Source: Fervidicoccaceae archaeon (lineage in GTDB: Archaea > Thermoproteota > Thermoprotei_A > Sulfolobales > Fervidicoccaceae). Taken from it: a stretch of 64,000 nucleotides of DNA. The notes under the pieces are model-generated. The model was not told the origin of the DNA and searched no databases. It saw only the letters and a list, made by a program, of their open reading frames with translations. The stretch spans positions 124,001-188,000 of the forward strand of contig JAVZVD010000001.1 of NCBI GenBank assembly GCA_038878695.1, read 5' to 3'. A program made the position numbers and the translations under genes. Of the stretch, positions 39,257-47,145 are shown one piece after another (position 1 is the stretch's first letter; every line of letters starts with the position of its first letter).

Positions 39257-40954
39257 TTGATCTCGGGAGCGAGAGCTCTAGTCGAGTCTCTCGAGAGGCT
39301 CAAGGTGAGAGTAGTCTTCGGGGTCCCCGGCGGCGCGGTGCTTCCTCTCTACGACTCTCTACTTGAATCCAATATCAGGCACGTGCTCGCTCGCCACGAG
39401 CAACAGGCGGCACACATGGCCGATGGATACGCCAGAGCGGGCGGGCGCCTCGGAGTCTGCATAGCCACCTCGGGTCCAGGAGCCATGAACCTCGTGACGG
39501 GTCTGGCCACGGCCTATATGGACAGCTCGCCCATTCTAGCGATAACGGGTCAGGTCGCGAGGCACCTCATAGGTCGAGACGCGTTCCAAGAGGCCGATAC
39601 GGTCGGCGTGGTCACGCCGATAACCAAATACGCATTCCAAGCGCGAGCCGCTAGAGAGATACCGTCGATAATAAAGACGGCTGCCGAAGTGGCGACTACG
39701 AGGAGACCGGGCCCGGTCCTAGTCGACGTCCCTGTCGACGTTCAGAGAGAGTTAGCCGATGAGAGTGAGTTCGACGACGGACCATATCTTGCGGGCTATG
39801 ACCCTAACCCGCCAGAGCTCGACCGAGAGAGTGTGAGAAGAGCGGCGGCCGCTTTGGCTGAGGCCGAGAGGCCCCTAATATTGGCCGGGGGAGGAGTCGT
39901 GGCCTCGGGTGCTCACGAGGAGCTAAGAGCGCTCGCCGAAATGCTGGGAGCGCCCGTCGCCACGACTCTCATGGGCAAGGGAGCGTTTCCCGAGGACCAT
40001 CCGCTGGCCCTCGGCATGATAGGGATGCACGGGAGACCGAGCGCCAATGTCGCCGTGAACGAGTGCGACGTCCTGCTGGCCGTTGGGACTAGATTCTCTG
40101 ATAGGAGCACGGGCAAGCTAGACGAGTTCGCTAAGCAGGCCCTCAAGATTCACATAGATGTGGACTCCTCGGAGATAAATAAGAACGTGCGAGTCGACGT
40201 GGGAATAACGGCCGACGCCAAGGAGGCCCTCTCCGCGCTCTTGAAGGAGCTCTCGAGACTCGCCAAGAGAGGAGCGAGTGAAGCCTGGAGAGCGAGGCTC
40301 GGCGGTCTCCGCGAGGTCCTGAGCACGAGAAGCTCCGGAGAATTGGACCCCCCCTCGGTGATAAAGCTCATAGAGTCGACGCTCGATCCGGGCCGTCTCA
40401 TTGTGACCACCGGCGTCGGCCAGAACCAGATGTGGGCGGCTCTATACTTCACCGCTAAGCACCCTAGAACCTTCATCACGTCGGGTGGGCTCGGGACCAT
40501 GGGTTTCGGATTACCGGCCGCGATTGGAGCTAAAGTAGCGAGGCCCGACAAGATCGTGGTTGATATAGATGGCGACGGGAGCTTCCTGATGACCGCTCAG
40601 GCCTTGGCCACTTCGGTCTCCGAGAACATCCAAGTGATAGCGGTGGTCCTCAAGAACGACGCGCTAGGCATGGTGAGGCAGTGGCAACATCTATTCTACG
40701 CGAGAAGATTCATTGCGACGGACTTTGAGCGGTCCCACGACTTCGTCAAGCTGGCCGAGGCCTTCGGGGCCGAGGGGGTGAGGGTGGAGAGCTTAGGGGA
40801 GCTCGAGAGGGCTCTGAGAAGAGCTGCCGGTAACGAAGTCACCACCGTCATCGAGGTGCCCATCTCGAGAGAGGAGAGAGTCTTTCCCATGGTCTTCCCG
40901 GGCAGGTCTCTACGCGAGGTGATGATCGATGAACGGCAGAGACTCCTCTTCTAA
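39257..40954 (+). CDS. ilvB: acetolactate synthase large subunit
   Basis: 565-residue TPP enzyme of branched-chain amino-acid synthesis. FGVPGGAVLPLYDSL near residue 22 and HEQQAAHMADGYARA near 45 (catalytic Glu) form the pyrimidine-binding side. The TPP/Mg motif IDGDGSFLMTAQ near 440 continues to LKNDALGMV. TTG 39257 is the in-frame start. An ATG at 39250 is in another frame. The next gene, ilvN, starts 25 bp before its stop. Confidence 0.94.
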   Translation: MISGARALVESLERLKVRVVFGVPGGAVLPLYDSLLESNIRHVLARHEQQAAHMADGYARAGGRLGVCIATSGPGAMNLVTGLATAYMDSSPILAITGQVARHLIGRDAFQEADTVGVVTPITKYAFQARAAREIPSIIKTAAEVATTRRPGPVLVDVPVDVQRELADESEFDDGPYLAGYDPNPPELDRESVRRAAAALAEAERPLILAGGGVVASGAHEELRALAEMLGAPVATTLMGKGAFPEDHPLALGMIGMHGRPSANVAVNECDVLLAVGTRFSDRSTGKLDEFAKQALKIHIDVDSSEINKNVRVDVGITADAKEALSALLKELSRLAKRGASEAWRARLGGLREVLSTRSSGELDPPSVIKLIESTLDPGRLIVTTGVGQNQMWAALYFTAKHPRTFITSGGLGTMGFGLPAAIGAKVARPDKIVVDIDGDGSFLMTAQALATSVSENIQVIAVVLKNDALGMVRQWQHLFYARRFIATDFERSHDFVKLAEAFGAEGVRVESLGELERALRRAAGNEVTTVIEVPISREERVFPMVFPGRSLREVMIDERQRLLF

Positions 40955-41417
40955 AGCCATAGTAGCCGTGGTCGAGGACAGGCCCGGCGTGCTGTACAGG
41001 GTGAGCTCTAGCATTAGAAGGAGAGGAATCAACATAGACTCTATGAACGTCTCACCCATCGGGAACTCGGGCTTTTCCAAGATGGTCTTCATAGTGAGGG
41101 CGGAGGAAGAGACCGCGGAGCATCTCGTCAAGAGCATAGCCAAGACCCCCAGCGTCCTATCGGTCGAGCTCCTAGAACTCGGAGAGAGCGTGGTCAGAGA
41201 ACTGGCGCTCCTGAAGGTCGCGGTCCACGGTAAGAGGCGCGAGGTCGTCGAGGTCTTGAGGCGCTGCGATGCCAAGGTGCTCATCGATGAAGGAGAGACC
41301 CTGATCGCCGAAGTCGTCGGAGCCCCAGAAGAGTTAAATGCCGTGGTTGAATTGCTGGATAGCCTAGCGGTCCTTTTGGACGTGTCGAGGAGCGGGCCGC
41401 TCGCTCTGAGGAGGTGA
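40929..41417 (+). CDS. ilvN: acetolactate synthase regulatory subunit
   Basis: 162 residues with an N-terminal ACT domain (about 10-85: [20 protein letters not shown], then [10 protein letters not shown]) and a C-terminal ferredoxin-like domain. It binds IlvB and usually confers valine feedback. The start ATG 40929 overlaps the ilvB end by 25 bp, an overlap that favours coupled translation. The usual length is 160-175 residues. Confidence 0.93.
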
Positions 41418-41424
41418 AGCGCGC

Positions 41425-42417
41425 TTGGCGAGAATCTTCTTACAGAACGAGATAGACGAGAGCATCCTGAGAGGCTCAACCATAGCGGTCCTAGGCTATG
41501 GGAGTCAGGGCAGGGCTCAGGCTCTAAATCTCAGAGATAGCGGCTTCAACGTAGTGGTCGGGCTGAGGAGAGGAGGGGCCTCGTGGGTCAAAGCGTCGGA
41601 GGAGGGCTTCGAGGTGATGGAGATGGACGAGGCCGTCAAGAGGGCTGACGTTGTCCTAATGCTCATCCCCGATATGGAACAACCGAGAGTCTACGAATCT
41701 AAGATAGCGCCCAACCTGAGGCCCGGCCAGGGGCTCTGCTTCGCTCACGGGTTCAACGTACACTTCGGTCTAATCAAACCCCCCGACTACGTCGACGTCT
41801 TCATGGTGGCTCCTAAGGGGCCTGGACCTAAAGTTAGAGAGGAATACCTACGCGGGCGCGGGGTGCCCGCCTTGGTAGCCGTAGCCAACGACTATACGCG
41901 GAGAGCTCTCGATAGAGCTCTGGCCATCGCCAAGGGCATAGGGAGTGCGAGAGCCGGCGTCCTCCTGACCACGTTCAAGGAAGAGACCGAGACAGACCTA
42001 ATGGGTGAACAATGCGTGCTCGTGGGAGGTCTCATGGAGTTGATAAAGAGGGGCTTCGAGGTCCTCGTGGAGGCTGGCTATCAGCCCGAGGTCGCGTACT
42101 TCGAGGTCTGCAACGAAGCGAAGCTCATCATGGATTTGATCTATAGCGGGGGGCTCCTCTACATGTTGAGGAGCGTGAGCGATACCGCGAAGTATGGGGG
42201 ACTCACGGTCGGGCCGAGAGTGATCGACGAGAGCGTTAAAGAGAGAATGAGAGAGGCTCTTCGCAGGATCCAGAGCGGGGAGTTCGCTCGAGAGTGGGTC
42301 GAGGAGTATTCCTCCGGCTCGAGAAGGTTGAGGAGCCTCCTCGAGGCTGTGGCCGCTCACCCGATAGAGTCTACGGGAGCGCTCGTGAGGAGGCTAAGCG
42401 GAGCGGAGAGCCAATGA
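41425..42417 (+). CDS. ilvC: ketol-acid reductoisomerase (class I)
   Basis: 330-residue class I enzyme: isomerisation and NAD(P)H reduction of acetolactate. The Rossmann loop is [16 protein letters not shown] near residue 23. The KARI domain has [32 protein letters not shown] (metal-binding Asp/Glu) and ISEF-region equivalents. TTG 41425 starts it, 7 bp after ilvN. The cofactor loop reads [10 protein letters not shown], whose arginines could favour NADPH; this is a guess. The stop overlaps ilvD (ATGA). Confidence 0.95.
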
Positions 42418-44090
42418 GAAGGTTTTTGAAAAGCGAAGCGCTCAAGGTCTTCCCCGAAAGGGCGCCTCACAGGAGCCTCTTGAAGGCTCTGGGGCTCTCC
42501 GACGAGGACCTCCGCAGACCTTTCGTGGCAGTGATCAACTCTTATGCCGAGGCCGTGCCCGGCCACTTCCACCTCAGGGCCGTCGCCGAGGCCGTGAAGA
42601 GGGGGGTATTGAGGGCGGGCGGGTTTCCCTTCGAGTTCAACACCATAGCCATATGCGACGGCCTTGCCATGGGTCACGAGGGCATGAGGTATTCTCTGCC
42701 CTCGAGAGAGATCGTGGCCGATTCCATCGAAGTGGTCTTGAAAGCCCACGCTTTCGACGCAGCAGTGCTCGTAGTGTCGTGTGACAAGATGGTGCCCGGA
42801 GCTCTCATGGCGGCCGCCAGGCTCGATATTCCGGCCGTCATGGTCACGGGAGGACCCATGCTCCCCGGCCGCTTCCGAGGAATGAACGTGACCCTCGCTC
42901 ACGTTTTCGAGGCGGTGGGCCGTCACAGGGTCGGAGAGCTCGACGACGAAGATTTGCTCGAGCTCGAGGCCAGAGCTTGCCCGGGCCCCGGCTCCTGCAG
43001 CGGGATGTTCACCGCGAACACTATGGCCTGTCTAGTAGAGGCCATGGGCATGGGGCTACCCGGAGTAGCTACGGCCCCCGCTGTCTCAGCCGAGAGGCTG
43101 AGGATAGCCGAGGAATCGGGCGCGCTGGCGGCGAGGCTCGCCGAGACAGGGCTCACTCCCAGGGAGATATTGAGGCGCGAGTCTTTCCTCAACGCGATAG
43201 CAGTCGATGTGGCGCTCGGTGGCTCAACCAATACGGTGTTGCACCTGATGGCCGTAGCACGCGAAACTGGAGTCGAGCTCGAGCTCGAGGACTTCGACGC
43301 TATCAGCAGGAGGGTGCCGCAGCTCTGCTCCATTTCGCCAAACGGTCCTCACACGATGCTCGACCTCCACGAGGCGGGAGGCGTGATGGCTCTGATGAGC
43401 GAGCTGAGAGACCTAATACACCTGAACGCGCCGACCGTCACCGGCAAGAAGATCGGAGAGCTCTTAGTCGAGGCCAGAGTCTCGAGACGCGACGTGATAC
43501 GAAGCATCAACGAGCCCGTCTCGAGAGAGGGGGGGCTGGCCGTGCTCCGCGGATCGCTCGCCCCAGAGGGCTCGGTAGTTAAGCTCGCCGGAGTGCCGAA
43601 GAGCATGAGGTTCTTCCGCGGAGAGGCCGTAGTCTTCGACTCCGAGGAAGAGTGCGTCGAGGCTCTCAGAGGAGGGAGGGTGAGCAGAGGAAGCGTCGTG
43701 GTAGTGAGATACGAAGGTCCGCGCGGGGGGCCGGGCATGAGAGAGATGCTAACCGCGACTTCCATGCTCGTGGGAATGAATCTGTGGGAGTCCGTGGCGC
43801 TCGTCACGGACGGTAGATTCTCGGGAGCCAGCCGAGGCCTCGTGGTGGGTCACGTGGCTCCGGAAGCCGCCGCTGGAGGCCCCATAGCCAGAGTGGTCGA
43901 TGGCGACCTCATCACGATAGACATAGAACGGAGGAGGCTCGACGTAGACTTCGTCGTCGATGAGCAGGAGAGGGAGAAGAGGCTCGAGAAATCGGGACCT
44001 AGGTGGAGGCCGAGCCTTGGCTACTTAGTCCGATACGCTCGCTCGGTCGGCTCGGCTAGCAGAGGAGCTACCCTGGAGATAGCCCCATGA
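42414..44090 (+). CDS. ilvD: dihydroxy-acid dehydratase
   Basis: 558-residue Fe-S dehydratase producing 2-oxoisovalerate/2-oxo-3-methylvalerate. Cluster cysteines are in [12 protein letters not shown] near 120 and [16 protein letters not shown] near 190. [14 protein letters not shown] near 270 and [17 protein letters not shown] near 465 are hallmark segments. ATG 42414 overlaps the ilvC stop; the longer open frame to 42294 is not needed. Last gene of the ilvB-N-C-D operon. Confidence 0.95.
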
Positions 44091-44121: not shown

Positions 44122-45210
44122 CTAGCGTCGCTCCCTGAGGATCACGACGGCTCTCGGGTTCCTCGCTCTCAACGCGTAGAACGACCACAGTCTGAAGACG
44201 TGGAGCCCGTCCTCGGGTCCAACATAGTTTATCTCGTAGTCAACGCCGACGACCAGATCCACGGAACTCTGATCTCTAGCGATCAGAAGGGCCACATCGT
44301 CCGGCAGGTCGGGTAACATCACCACGTCCTCGACGAGAGCTTTGAGCCTCGCGAGCTCTGTGAGACCCGTCTTCTCATAGATCGCTAGGAGCCTCGCGTA
44401 TCTGGTCGTGCCAACCAAGAGCACGTAAGGTCTAGGCATGCGCTCGCGGAGCAGAGCAGCTAGCGCCTTAGAGACGTCGAGGAGAGCCTCCCCCGGGGCC
44501 TCCCAGCTCCCCAGAGCCTCCTCCAATGCTCCCGGCAGAGCTAGGAGGGTCTTAGTCAAGTCCTCATCCTCTCGCCGCGCCAAGATGGCTGCCGCCCTCG
44601 ACGCCGGGGCCGTCAACTCTGCGGATGATCCCAGCCTTCTGGCCGCGTCGATAGACCTCTGAGACAACGCGAAGAGCTCCTCGAGCTCCCTCAGTTCCAC
44701 CAATTCCCTCCCGCCGGGGACCACGCGCTCCCCCTCGCTCAGCTTCTCGACGACCAGAGCATCAACTCCTCTCCCGACCCGCGTGACAGGCAGATAGCGC
44801 CTCAGCACCCGCGCTCTACTGAGGACTTCCTCTACGGCTCTGCTCAGATGCTCGACCTCTTCGCGCGTCAGAGGGCCCTCCAAGGCGGGCGGATCCCCCG
44901 AGCTCTGCTCGGCGACGTGCTTCCCTCTCGTCAGCTCCATCACTTCTCTCTCGCCGGCCTCTAGCTCGGCCGCCTGCTGCGGGTCGAGCTCCTTGAGCAG
45001 AGCGAGGAACTCGCCGACGTGAGTCTTCTCCTCTCTAGCTATGTCTTCGAGAACCCTCTTTACCCTCTCGTCGCCGACCGCATCGGCCAGCTGAAGATAG
45101 AGGCTCACCGCGTCGAGCTCCGCTATTATCGAAAGCCTGAGGGCGTCGGCCGTCCTCTCGGGGCCTAGCTTCTTGTCTCGGAGCAGCTCGAGAGGGTGCT
45201 TCGATAACAC
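44122..45210 (-). CDS. encapsulin shell protein fused to N-terminal ferritin-like cargo domain
   Basis: 362-residue fusion. Residues about 18-75 form a two-helix encapsulated-ferritin domain with metal-site residues AELDAVSLYLQ and REEKTHVGEF. A linker of about 35 residues leads to the HK97-fold encapsulin shell (about 110-362): GGRELVELRELEELFALSQR, RPYVLLVGTTRYARLL, then DLVVGVDYEINYVG and ALRARNPRAVVILR. Pyrococcus furiosus has the same fused architecture, in which the ferritin sits inside the shell and stores iron. GTG 45210 has a GATGAG site upstream. It is divergent from a DUF438/PAS gene across an operator-like region. Confidence 0.92.
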   Translation of the reverse strand: MLSKHPLELLRDKKLGPERTADALRLSIIAELDAVSLYLQLADAVGDERVKRVLEDIAREEKTHVGEFLALLKELDPQQAAELEAGEREVMELTRGKHVAEQSSGDPPALEGPLTREEVEHLSRAVEEVLSRARVLRRYLPVTRVGRGVDALVVEKLSEGERVVPGGRELVELRELEELFALSQRSIDAARRLGSSAELTAPASRAAAILARREDEDLTKTLLALPGALEEALGSWEAPGEALLDVSKALAALLRERMPRPYVLLVGTTRYARLLAIYEKTGLTELARLKALVEDVVMLPDLPDDVALLIARDQSSVDLVVGVDYEINYVGPEDGLHVFRLWSFYALRARNPRAVVILRERR

Positions 45211-45278
45211 TTCTCATCTCCCACGCTATCTTGAGAGGCCTCGTTAAGTATTCGTATCGCGCTACTTACTATAGAAAA

Positions 45279-45329
45279 GTTTATATAATGCTAGCTACGA
45301 ATCAACACGTGGTGTTGACGCATGTCAAC
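45279..45329. promoter_or_regulatory. promoter with overlapping palindromic half-sites, encapsulin/DUF438 gap
   Basis: TATA box GTTTATATA (45279-45287) on the plus strand. About 20-40 nt later come CAACAC-GTG-GTGTTG (45303-45317) and GTTGAC-GCAT-GTCAAC (45314-45329), two overlapping inverted repeats built on TCAAC/GTTGA half-sites. They cover the expected transcription start near 45310, the position for a repressor site. Confidence 0.55.
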
Positions 45330-45456
45330 AACGAGGTTCAGCTCGAAAGGTAAAGCCAACGCCCCGAGCCTATTCCTAGTCGAGGGGCTCTCGCCGCTGG
45401 GGGGAGGCTCAAGAGGCTCTGAGCAGCTTGAGGGTGAGGAGCTTGAACGACACTAA
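45322..45456 (+). CDS. possible 44-residue leader ORF
   Basis: ATG 45322 opens 44 codons beginning MSTTRFSSKGKANAPSLFLV and ending in TAA at 45456. It lies just downstream of the TATA box and inside the operator-like repeats, and overlaps the first codons of the DUF438 gene in another frame. No family is recognised. It could be a coupled leader peptide or chance. Confidence 0.25.
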   Translation: MSTTRFSSKGKANAPSLFLVEGLSPLGGGSRGSEQLEGEELERH

Positions 45457-46741
45457 GACCGCGATCAAAGAGGCTCTGAAGGCCATCCATCGAGGAGAGA
45501 ACGTTGAGGAGCTCAAGAAGAGACTATCCGGCTTGCTCTCGAAGATCTCCCCGACCGACATACCTCTCATAGAGCAGGAGCTCATCAAGGAGGGCGTCTC
45601 CGTCCGTGAGATCCTGAAGCTCTGCGACCTGCACGTGGCTCTCTTCCGAGAGCACCTGGCCGGCAGAGAGCTGGCGGGCGTGCCTCAAGGACACCCGCTC
45701 GACCTGCTCTTACGGGAGAACGAGAAGATAACAGCGCTCGCCGAGGCCCTGGGGCTCTACGCGAAGGCCCTCGAGAGGGCCGAGGAGGTCGAGAAGGCGA
45801 AGATCCTGGCCGAGCTGAGGGCGCTCGAGGGGGAGCTGAGGTCTCTGAGGTCTCACTATAGCAAGATCCAGATGCTGTTGTTCCCCTATTTGGAGAAGAT
45901 GGGCCTGATCGCTGTGCCTAGAGTCCTGTGGGGCAAAGAGGACGAGGTCCTCCTCAAGGTGAGAAAGTTGTTGGGTTCGCTGCGAGGAGAGCGGGTAGAT
46001 CCCGGCGAACTGGCGGCTCTGGCATCAGAGGTCTCTAGGGGCCTGCAGGATCTTGTTTTCAGGGAGAACAAGATCTTGTTCCCCTCCCTGTGGGCCCTGC
46101 TCGACGAGTCGGCGTGGTCGGCCATACTCGAGGAGATGAGGAGGTCGCGCCTCGGCTCCCTAGTCGAAGGACTCGAGGAGGGTTGGGCGCCCTCAGTCGA
46201 ACCGAGGCTCCCCCACGAGTGGGGGCTTGAGCTTAGCCCCTCTAAGATAGCGGGGCTGGCGCCGGAGATACACCTCATACTGTCATCGCGCGGCCTATCG
46301 CCGGACAACTACGAGCTGCGCCGAGACGGTGACCTGGAGCTGGGGACGGGCTACCTATCGCCGAGGGAGCTCGCCGGGATTCTAGCGAGTCTACCGCTCG
46401 AGCTCACGTTCGCCGACGCCGAGGGGAGAGTGAGGTTCTACTCCGAGAGTAAGTTGGCGAAGGCCTTCCCGAGAGCCAGAACCGTGCTGGGGAGGAGGCT
46501 CGAATTCTGCCACCCGCCTAGGCTCGAGCGCTTCGTTGGGGAGATCTTCGAGGAGCTGCGAAGGGGCAAGAGGGACGTCGTCGAGTTCTGGACTCGGAGA
46601 GAGGGCAGAACGTACAGGGTGCTCGTCGTGGCGGTCAGAGGGGAGAGAGGAGAGTTCCTGGGAGCGCTCGAGATCGCCGAGGACCTGACCAATGTCATCG
46701 AGAGAGCGAGCGAGATCGAGAGCGAAGTCCTGGTGGTCTGA
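45443..46741 (+). CDS. DUF438/hemerythrin-like/PAS sensor protein
   Basis: About 430-residue multidomain protein. Residues 1-65 are the DUF438 domain (SGLLSKISPTDIPLIEQELI, then ILKLCDLHVALFREHL). Residues about 75-240 are a helical hemerythrin-like HHE domain with several His/Glu positions (HYSKIQML, FRENKILFPSLW). The C-terminal about 330-430 is a PAS domain (LTFADAEGRVRFYS, FWTRREGRTYRVLV). Such proteins are thought to sense redox, O2 or NO; the mechanism is not proven. The start may be TTG 45428, GTG 45434 or TTG 45443; I choose 45443. The gene is followed by a regulator 3 bp away. Confidence 0.78.
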   Translation: MNDTKTAIKEALKAIHRGENVEELKKRLSGLLSKISPTDIPLIEQELIKEGVSVREILKLCDLHVALFREHLAGRELAGVPQGHPLDLLLRENEKITALAEALGLYAKALERAEEVEKAKILAELRALEGELRSLRSHYSKIQMLLFPYLEKMGLIAVPRVLWGKEDEVLLKVRKLLGSLRGERVDPGELAALASEVSRGLQDLVFRENKILFPSLWALLDESAWSAILEEMRRSRLGSLVEGLEEGWAPSVEPRLPHEWGLELSPSKIAGLAPEIHLILSSRGLSPDNYELRRDGDLELGTGYLSPRELAGILASLPLELTFADAEGRVRFYSESKLAKAFPRARTVLGRRLEFCHPPRLERFVGEIFEELRRGKRDVVEFWTRREGRTYRVLVVAVRGERGEFLGALEIAEDLTNVIERASEIESEVLVV

Positions 46742-46743
46742 GC

Positions 46744-47145
46744 GTGCTCACTCCCCTTGAATTGGGCGAGAGATACGTGTTGCCCGCTTTTAGGAGGAGG
46801 CTCGTCGAGCTTCTACGCGAGAAGGGGATGAGCTACTCCGACATAGCCTCGGTCCTCGGAATAACGCGCTCGGCGGTGGCCAGATACCTCTCGGCCGAGA
46901 GGGGGGCGCGCTTCGAGCCGGCGGAACTGCGCGACGTAGACACGCGGCTCGCGAAGCTGGCCGAGGACATATCGTTGAGGAGAATCGGGAGGAGGGAGAT
47001 CGAGATGGGGCTGATCGAGGAAGCGCTCCGAGCAATGGGTCGCGGCTACGTTTGCCGGCTCCACTCCTCCCTCGAGCCAGGCGCTACTAGAGGCTGCAGA
47101 CTGTGCGTCGAACTCTTCGGGAGCTACTCTAGGGAATCACGGTAA
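46744..47145 (+). CDS. HTH transcriptional regulator (COG2522-like)
   Basis: 133 residues. A strong HTH lies at about 25-52 (KGMSYSDIASVLGITRSAVARY). The C-terminus has conserved Cys/His (YVCRLHSS, GCRLCVELF), possibly metal-binding. This is the same layout as the regulator at 35603. It lies directly after the PAS/hemerythrin-like gene, so a pathway from a redox sensor to a repressor acting on the divergent promoter is an attractive inference. GTG 46744 is the start. A T6 run follows. Confidence 0.8.
   Translation: MLTPLELGERYVLPAFRRRLVELLREKGMSYSDIASVLGITRSAVARYLSAERGARFEPAELRDVDTRLAKLAEDISLRRIGRREIEMGLIEEALRAMGRGYVCRLHSSLEPGATRGCRLCVELFGSYSRESR

Follow-up and report, generated by a model that had tools for sequence, protein, structure and literature searches.

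A ferritin-fused encapsulin gene beside a DUF438-PAS/HTH operon with its own conserved operator in a Fervidicoccaceae archaeon

Introduction

Encapsulins of the Flp-fusion type occur only in archaea, for the most part in Crenarchaeota, they often share operons with ferritin-like or rubrerythrin genes, and structural work has been cited for those of Pyrococcus furiosus and Sulfolobus solfataricus (Heinemann 2011, cited in PMC8346489). In the P. furiosus protein (VLP/encapsulin; PDB 2e0z, ferritin domain 5n5e) an N-terminal encapsulated-ferritin (EncFtn) domain, a linker and an HK97-fold shell follow one another on a single chain. The ferritin domain of the archaeal fusion type carries the motif D-x3-EE-x-TH (PMC11202242).

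Among proteins of solved structure the closest to the sensor-like product described below is P. furiosus PF0695 (PDB 3cax), which is uncharacterised and combines a hemerythrin-like region with a PAS region bearing a CHPP motif. In hemerythrins the di-iron ligands are provided by HxxxE and further histidine. In the literature searched on DUF438, on hemerythrin-PAS iron sensors and on ThiR/ThiN, no description of the DUF438-PAS/HTH cassette was found.

Here we analyse a window of 64,000 nucleotides on contig C1 of a Fervidicoccaceae archaeon (genome of 1.11 Mb in five contigs), in which a gene of the first kind lies divergent to an operon containing one of the second. A first-pass annotation had suggested that they form one functional unit, an iron-store nanocompartment under redox or iron control, for which it knew of no description in Thermoprotei.

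Results

Table 1. Features of the locus, in coordinates of the window
Feature	Position	Strand	Basis
Flp-fusion family 1 encapsulin, 362 aa, GTG start	44122..45210	-	family, structure and relatives' matches
HK97-fold encapsulin shell domain, residues 113-341	44188..44874	-	Linocin_M18 and Foldseek
Encapsulated-ferritin (EncFtn) domain, residues ~17-94	44929..45162	-	Pfam and 2e0z/5n5e matches
Candidate TATA element of encapsulin gene, ATACTTAA	45244..45251	-	sequence inspection only
TATA-like box of DUF438 operon, TTTATATAA	45280..45288	+	sequence inspection
Extra dyad TCAACACGTGGTGTTGA overlapping the operator; conservation in relatives not established	45302..45318		string search
Conserved operator core TTGACGCATGTCAA, located at the predicted transcription start of DUF438 operon	45315..45328		comparison with relatives
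44-codon ORF from the ATG equivalent to the relatives' start codon, in a frame other than that of the DUF438 ORF	45322..45456	+	sequence reading
DUF438 / hemerythrin-like / PAS_10 protein, 437 aa, TTG start	45428..46741	+	family search
HTH regulator, 133 aa, second gene of DUF438 operon	46744..47145	+	family search, relatives

The minus-strand gene (Table 1) is an ordinary archaeal iron-storage nanocompartment gene of the well-known fused type, and its architecture equals that of the crenarchaeal Flp-fusion encapsulins, including the one of S. solfataricus (PMC8346489). Relatives that open MLSKHPLEL support the GTG start, and in relatives, as in the window, the ferritin and shell domains form one continuous ORF. 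The family search matched residues 22-91 to Rubrerythrin (4.8e-8) and EncFtn-like (2e-6), Pfam matched residues 113-341 to Linocin_M18 (4.7e-29), and the product scored 104.6 bits with NCBIfam encap_f1, above the cut-off of 100. The P. furiosus VLP 2e0z was matched over the full length (E 2.9e-47, alignment over residues 1-358), yet the two sequences are divergent. Residues 134-141, R-V-L-R-R-Y-L-P, resemble the fusion peptide RSLLKHLP (PMC11202242). An AlphaFold model (mean pLDDT 85.6) matched the shell of 2e0z_A in Foldseek with E 1.2e-21, TMt 0.91 and rmsd 1.9, and only encapsulins were among the matches listed (prob 1.00); both the P. furiosus-type fusion and the HK97 shell proposed in the first-pass annotation are thus borne out.

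At the ferroxidase site, E31, Y38, E61 and H64 do not vary in an alignment of the encapsulin with 19 relatives (20 sequences), and the D-x3-EE-x-TH motif is present, with D56 and E60 invariant as well. Sequence and model thus establish the fold and the active site; by analogy with the P. furiosus encapsulin the shell domain would assemble into an icosahedral cage, each subunit of which would bear a ferritin-like ferroxidase domain on its inner side, where Fe(II) would be oxidised and Fe(III) stored.

Fused forms make up 39 of the 80 named ferritin/encapsulin loci retained, among them loci of Pyrobaculum, Caldivirga, Vulcanisaeta, Thermofilales, Ignisphaera and Pyrodictium. Flp-fusion encapsulins are common in Thermoproteota, and in view of this frequency and of the P. 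furiosus and crenarchaeal precedents the encapsulin belongs to an already known family; for the fusion protein, the earlier impression that Thermoprotei held no described case was mistaken (PMC8346489).

Unlike the fusion encapsulins that share operons with ferritin-like or rubrerythrin genes (PMC8346489), the window gene has ilv-type genes and the DUF438 operon as neighbours. The former (39257-44090, plus strand) are acetolactate synthase-like, ketol-acid reductoisomerase-like and dihydroxy-acid dehydratase genes, of the branched-chain amino acid biosynthesis type and convergent with the encapsulin gene; the family search covered the dehydratase only. In several relatives (L002, L041, L044, L051) the next gene after the encapsulin codes for a ferritin-like, weakly rubrerythrin-like protein of ~160 aa; the window has no such gene there.

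Many genomes carry standalone encapsulin-type ferritins of ~92-106 aa, which end where the linker of the fused form starts and show no evident targeting peptide. A detectable shell gene is missing for those at L121-L161 and in G013, G023, G024, G025, G033, G043 and G044, and several near-complete single-contig genomes among the 59 relatives have a standalone ferritin and zero Linocin_M18 matches. A tree of the ferritin domain, built from few sites and with a bootstrap that had not yet converged, requires seven changes between fused and standalone forms, at least three of them forced by well-supported branches, and some standalone forms are nested among fused ones. It seems that fusion or separation of shell and cargo took place on several occasions. 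Internal stops in G010, G014, G033 and G035 were considered as sites of readthrough from ferritin into shell, and this was set aside: in the one fused case read at the sequence level (G010, locus L007) the stop is the normal gene end, and in the other genomes the match is confined, or nearly so, to the ferritin part.

Facing the encapsulin gene, the product of the divergent gene contains DUF438 (2.8e-23), Hemerythrin (5e-10) and PAS_10 (1.1e-19) domains in that order. Like PF0695, to which it aligns over residues 85-421 (E 3.8e-61), it has hemerythrin-like and PAS regions with a CHPP motif. PF0695 keeps HxxxE and KHDE, whereas the window protein has HYSKIQ and KEDE at those places. HxxxE is absent from all 19 hemerythrin-like domains aligned (the window protein and 18 homologs); the motifs conserved instead are C-D/N-x-H, within DUF438, and CHPP, within the PAS domain. 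As this iron ligand motif is lost, an intact di-iron site appears unlikely and a role as di-iron sensor doubtful. The domain make-up given in the first-pass annotation is supported, and its metal-sensor label is weakened by this loss.

The second gene of the operon encodes a small HTH protein in which C104-x2-H107 and C118-x2-C121 are invariant, in agreement with the cysteine-bearing regulator noted in the first-pass annotation. Of the 19 loci read in detail, 14 have it next to the DUF438 gene, and a hand count of coordinates gives about 53 of 71 genomes; some DUF438 loci have no HTH gene or no dyad. Judged by this gene order, DUF438 and HTH form a conserved two-gene operon. A Foldseek comparison of the HTH model with the PDB gave no match with E < 0.3, and the alignment profile matched mainly generic HTH and zinc-finger entries.

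Upstream of the DUF438 gene two overlapping dyads, TCAACACGTGGTGTTGA and, at 45314-45329, GTTGACGCATGTCAAC, lie about 15-40 bp downstream of the TATA-like TTTATATAA; they were located by string search, and a general repeat search did not list them. The second dyad is beyond chance, for it recurs at the orthologous DUF438 promoter in other genera; relatives carry it as TTGACACATGTCAA, TTGACACGTGTCAA or TTGACGCGTGTCAA, in most cases with its first base 7 bases ahead of the start codon. The operator-like repeats that the first-pass annotation placed where transcription of the sensor gene is predicted to begin are thus supported as an operator. The consensus TTGACRYRYGTCAA was written from the relatives' sites, and the 14 DUF438-associated sites from the further class genomes played no part in it. 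Exact matches occur in 10 of the 59 relatives, one site each, and every one directly precedes the DUF438 gene. Across the 229 class genomes 29 exact sites were counted; 24 fall no more than ~125 bp upstream of a DUF438 gene, and the remaining five equal the count for a reversed control pattern (5 in the same 229 genomes). In 21 orthologous and 34 named upstream regions of fused encapsulins, the window excepted, the best match to the dyad had three mismatches, which is the level of shuffled sequence. By comparison of genomes the operator is real and occurs at nearly one site per genome. As 24 of the 29 sites lie at DUF438 genes and the other five are at control level, the dyad is most likely a single-target autoregulatory site of the DUF438-HTH operon.

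Discussion

We propose that the encapsulin gene and the DUF438-HTH operon are independent units and that the HTH protein represses its own operon via the dyad, a reading that we hold to be probable. In this scheme the 133-aa HTH product, probably dimeric, would bind TTGAC-RYRY-GTCAA where transcription and translation of its operon begin and would so repress the operon, and the DUF438-PAS protein most likely would pass a redox or small-molecule signal to the HTH protein.

It is conceivable, though unlikely, that in this lineage the encapsulin is controlled by DUF438/HTH via a shared operator, so that iron storage would answer to redox state or iron. The divergent promoters are confined to an intergenic gap of 217 bp (not 230 bp, as first given), the functions are alike in theme on paper, both touching on iron and redox, and the extra dyad extends the operator to the encapsulin side. 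Its additional half-site lies ~50 bp from the encapsulin's candidate TATA element, so that the encapsulin could, physically, be affected. The comparison with other genomes speaks against such control. Adjacency of the two genes was found in this genome only among the 59 relatives and the 229 genomes of the class, the nearest other arrangement being that of G140 with the loci ~4.7 kb apart, and none of the 80 named ferritin/encapsulin loci had a DUF438 or HTH relative nearby (flanks being short for some). Elsewhere the operator is tied to DUF438 throughout, and the hemerythrin-like domain has lost its HxxxE ligand motif. Within families, co-occurrence of DUF438 and encapsulin reached z = 3.1 when every genome was counted and fell to z = -0.07 when only those of 90% completeness or more were kept; as the signal vanishes in the latter, we regard it as an artefact of MAG completeness. 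Linkage in relatives was the point on which the first-pass annotation had staked the pairing, and the neighbourhood comparison went against it: the operator follows the DUF438 gene and not the encapsulin. That the encapsulin lies beside the DUF438 operon is most likely due to chance in this lineage.

A broader version of this idea, that DUF438-PAS/HTH is an undescribed archaeal single-operator sensing circuit whose operator was extended in a Fervidicoccaceae-like lineage to drive the nanocompartment too, we consider quite unlikely.

Could the dyad act on RNA, as a translation-control element at the start codon, rather than as a DNA operator? The start codon of the relatives does fall inside it. 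Against this, a loopless palindrome of 14 nt cannot form a stable hairpin on itself, its left half precedes the start codon, close to where transcription is expected to begin, and the partner in the operon is an HTH gene, which leaves an RNA element very improbable. As the dyad has no loop, a protein-bound DNA site suits it better than an RNA hairpin.

That the HK97-fold gene is the capsid of a relic or live provirus can hardly be credited: HK97 capsids and encapsulins do have common ancestry and the P. furiosus relative 2e0z was originally named a virus-like particle, but here a ferroxidase domain with an active site invariant in 20 sequences is fused to the shell, the score exceeds the encapsulin-specific family cut-off, and the neighbours examined, such as dihydroxy-acid dehydratase, are non-viral.

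The encapsulin extends a known archaeal iron-storage family by one genome. A DUF438-PAS gene, an HTH gene and, as a rule, a single operator in each genome are kept together across an archaeal order, and this cassette offers a minimal autoregulatory circuit that can be put to the test for a domain family without an assigned function. The locus also illustrates that divergent neighbours, even when they match in theme, need not have common regulation.

The beginning of the DUF438 gene in the window is peculiar. Its TTG at 45428 lies 106 bases past the ATG at 45322, which is the counterpart, within the dyad, of the relatives' start codon. Between the two lies a run of GGGGGG (45399-45404), and with one G fewer the frames would be joined and the protein would gain an N-terminal extension, as in G140. 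The upstream stretch may be either a genuine long leader or a sequence error.

The HTH and Cys/His module of the window regulator recurs in HTH-ThiN proteins of ~300 aa in G002, G018 and G043, which we take to be ThiR-type thiamine regulators. An N-terminal HTH and a C-x2-H...C-x2-C module are common to both, whereas the ThiN domain, found at 1e-43 or better in the HTH-ThiN relatives of 300-311 aa, is missing from the 133-aa window regulator, whose chain stops just past the shared module. One DNA-binding module thus seems to have been paired with different sensors.
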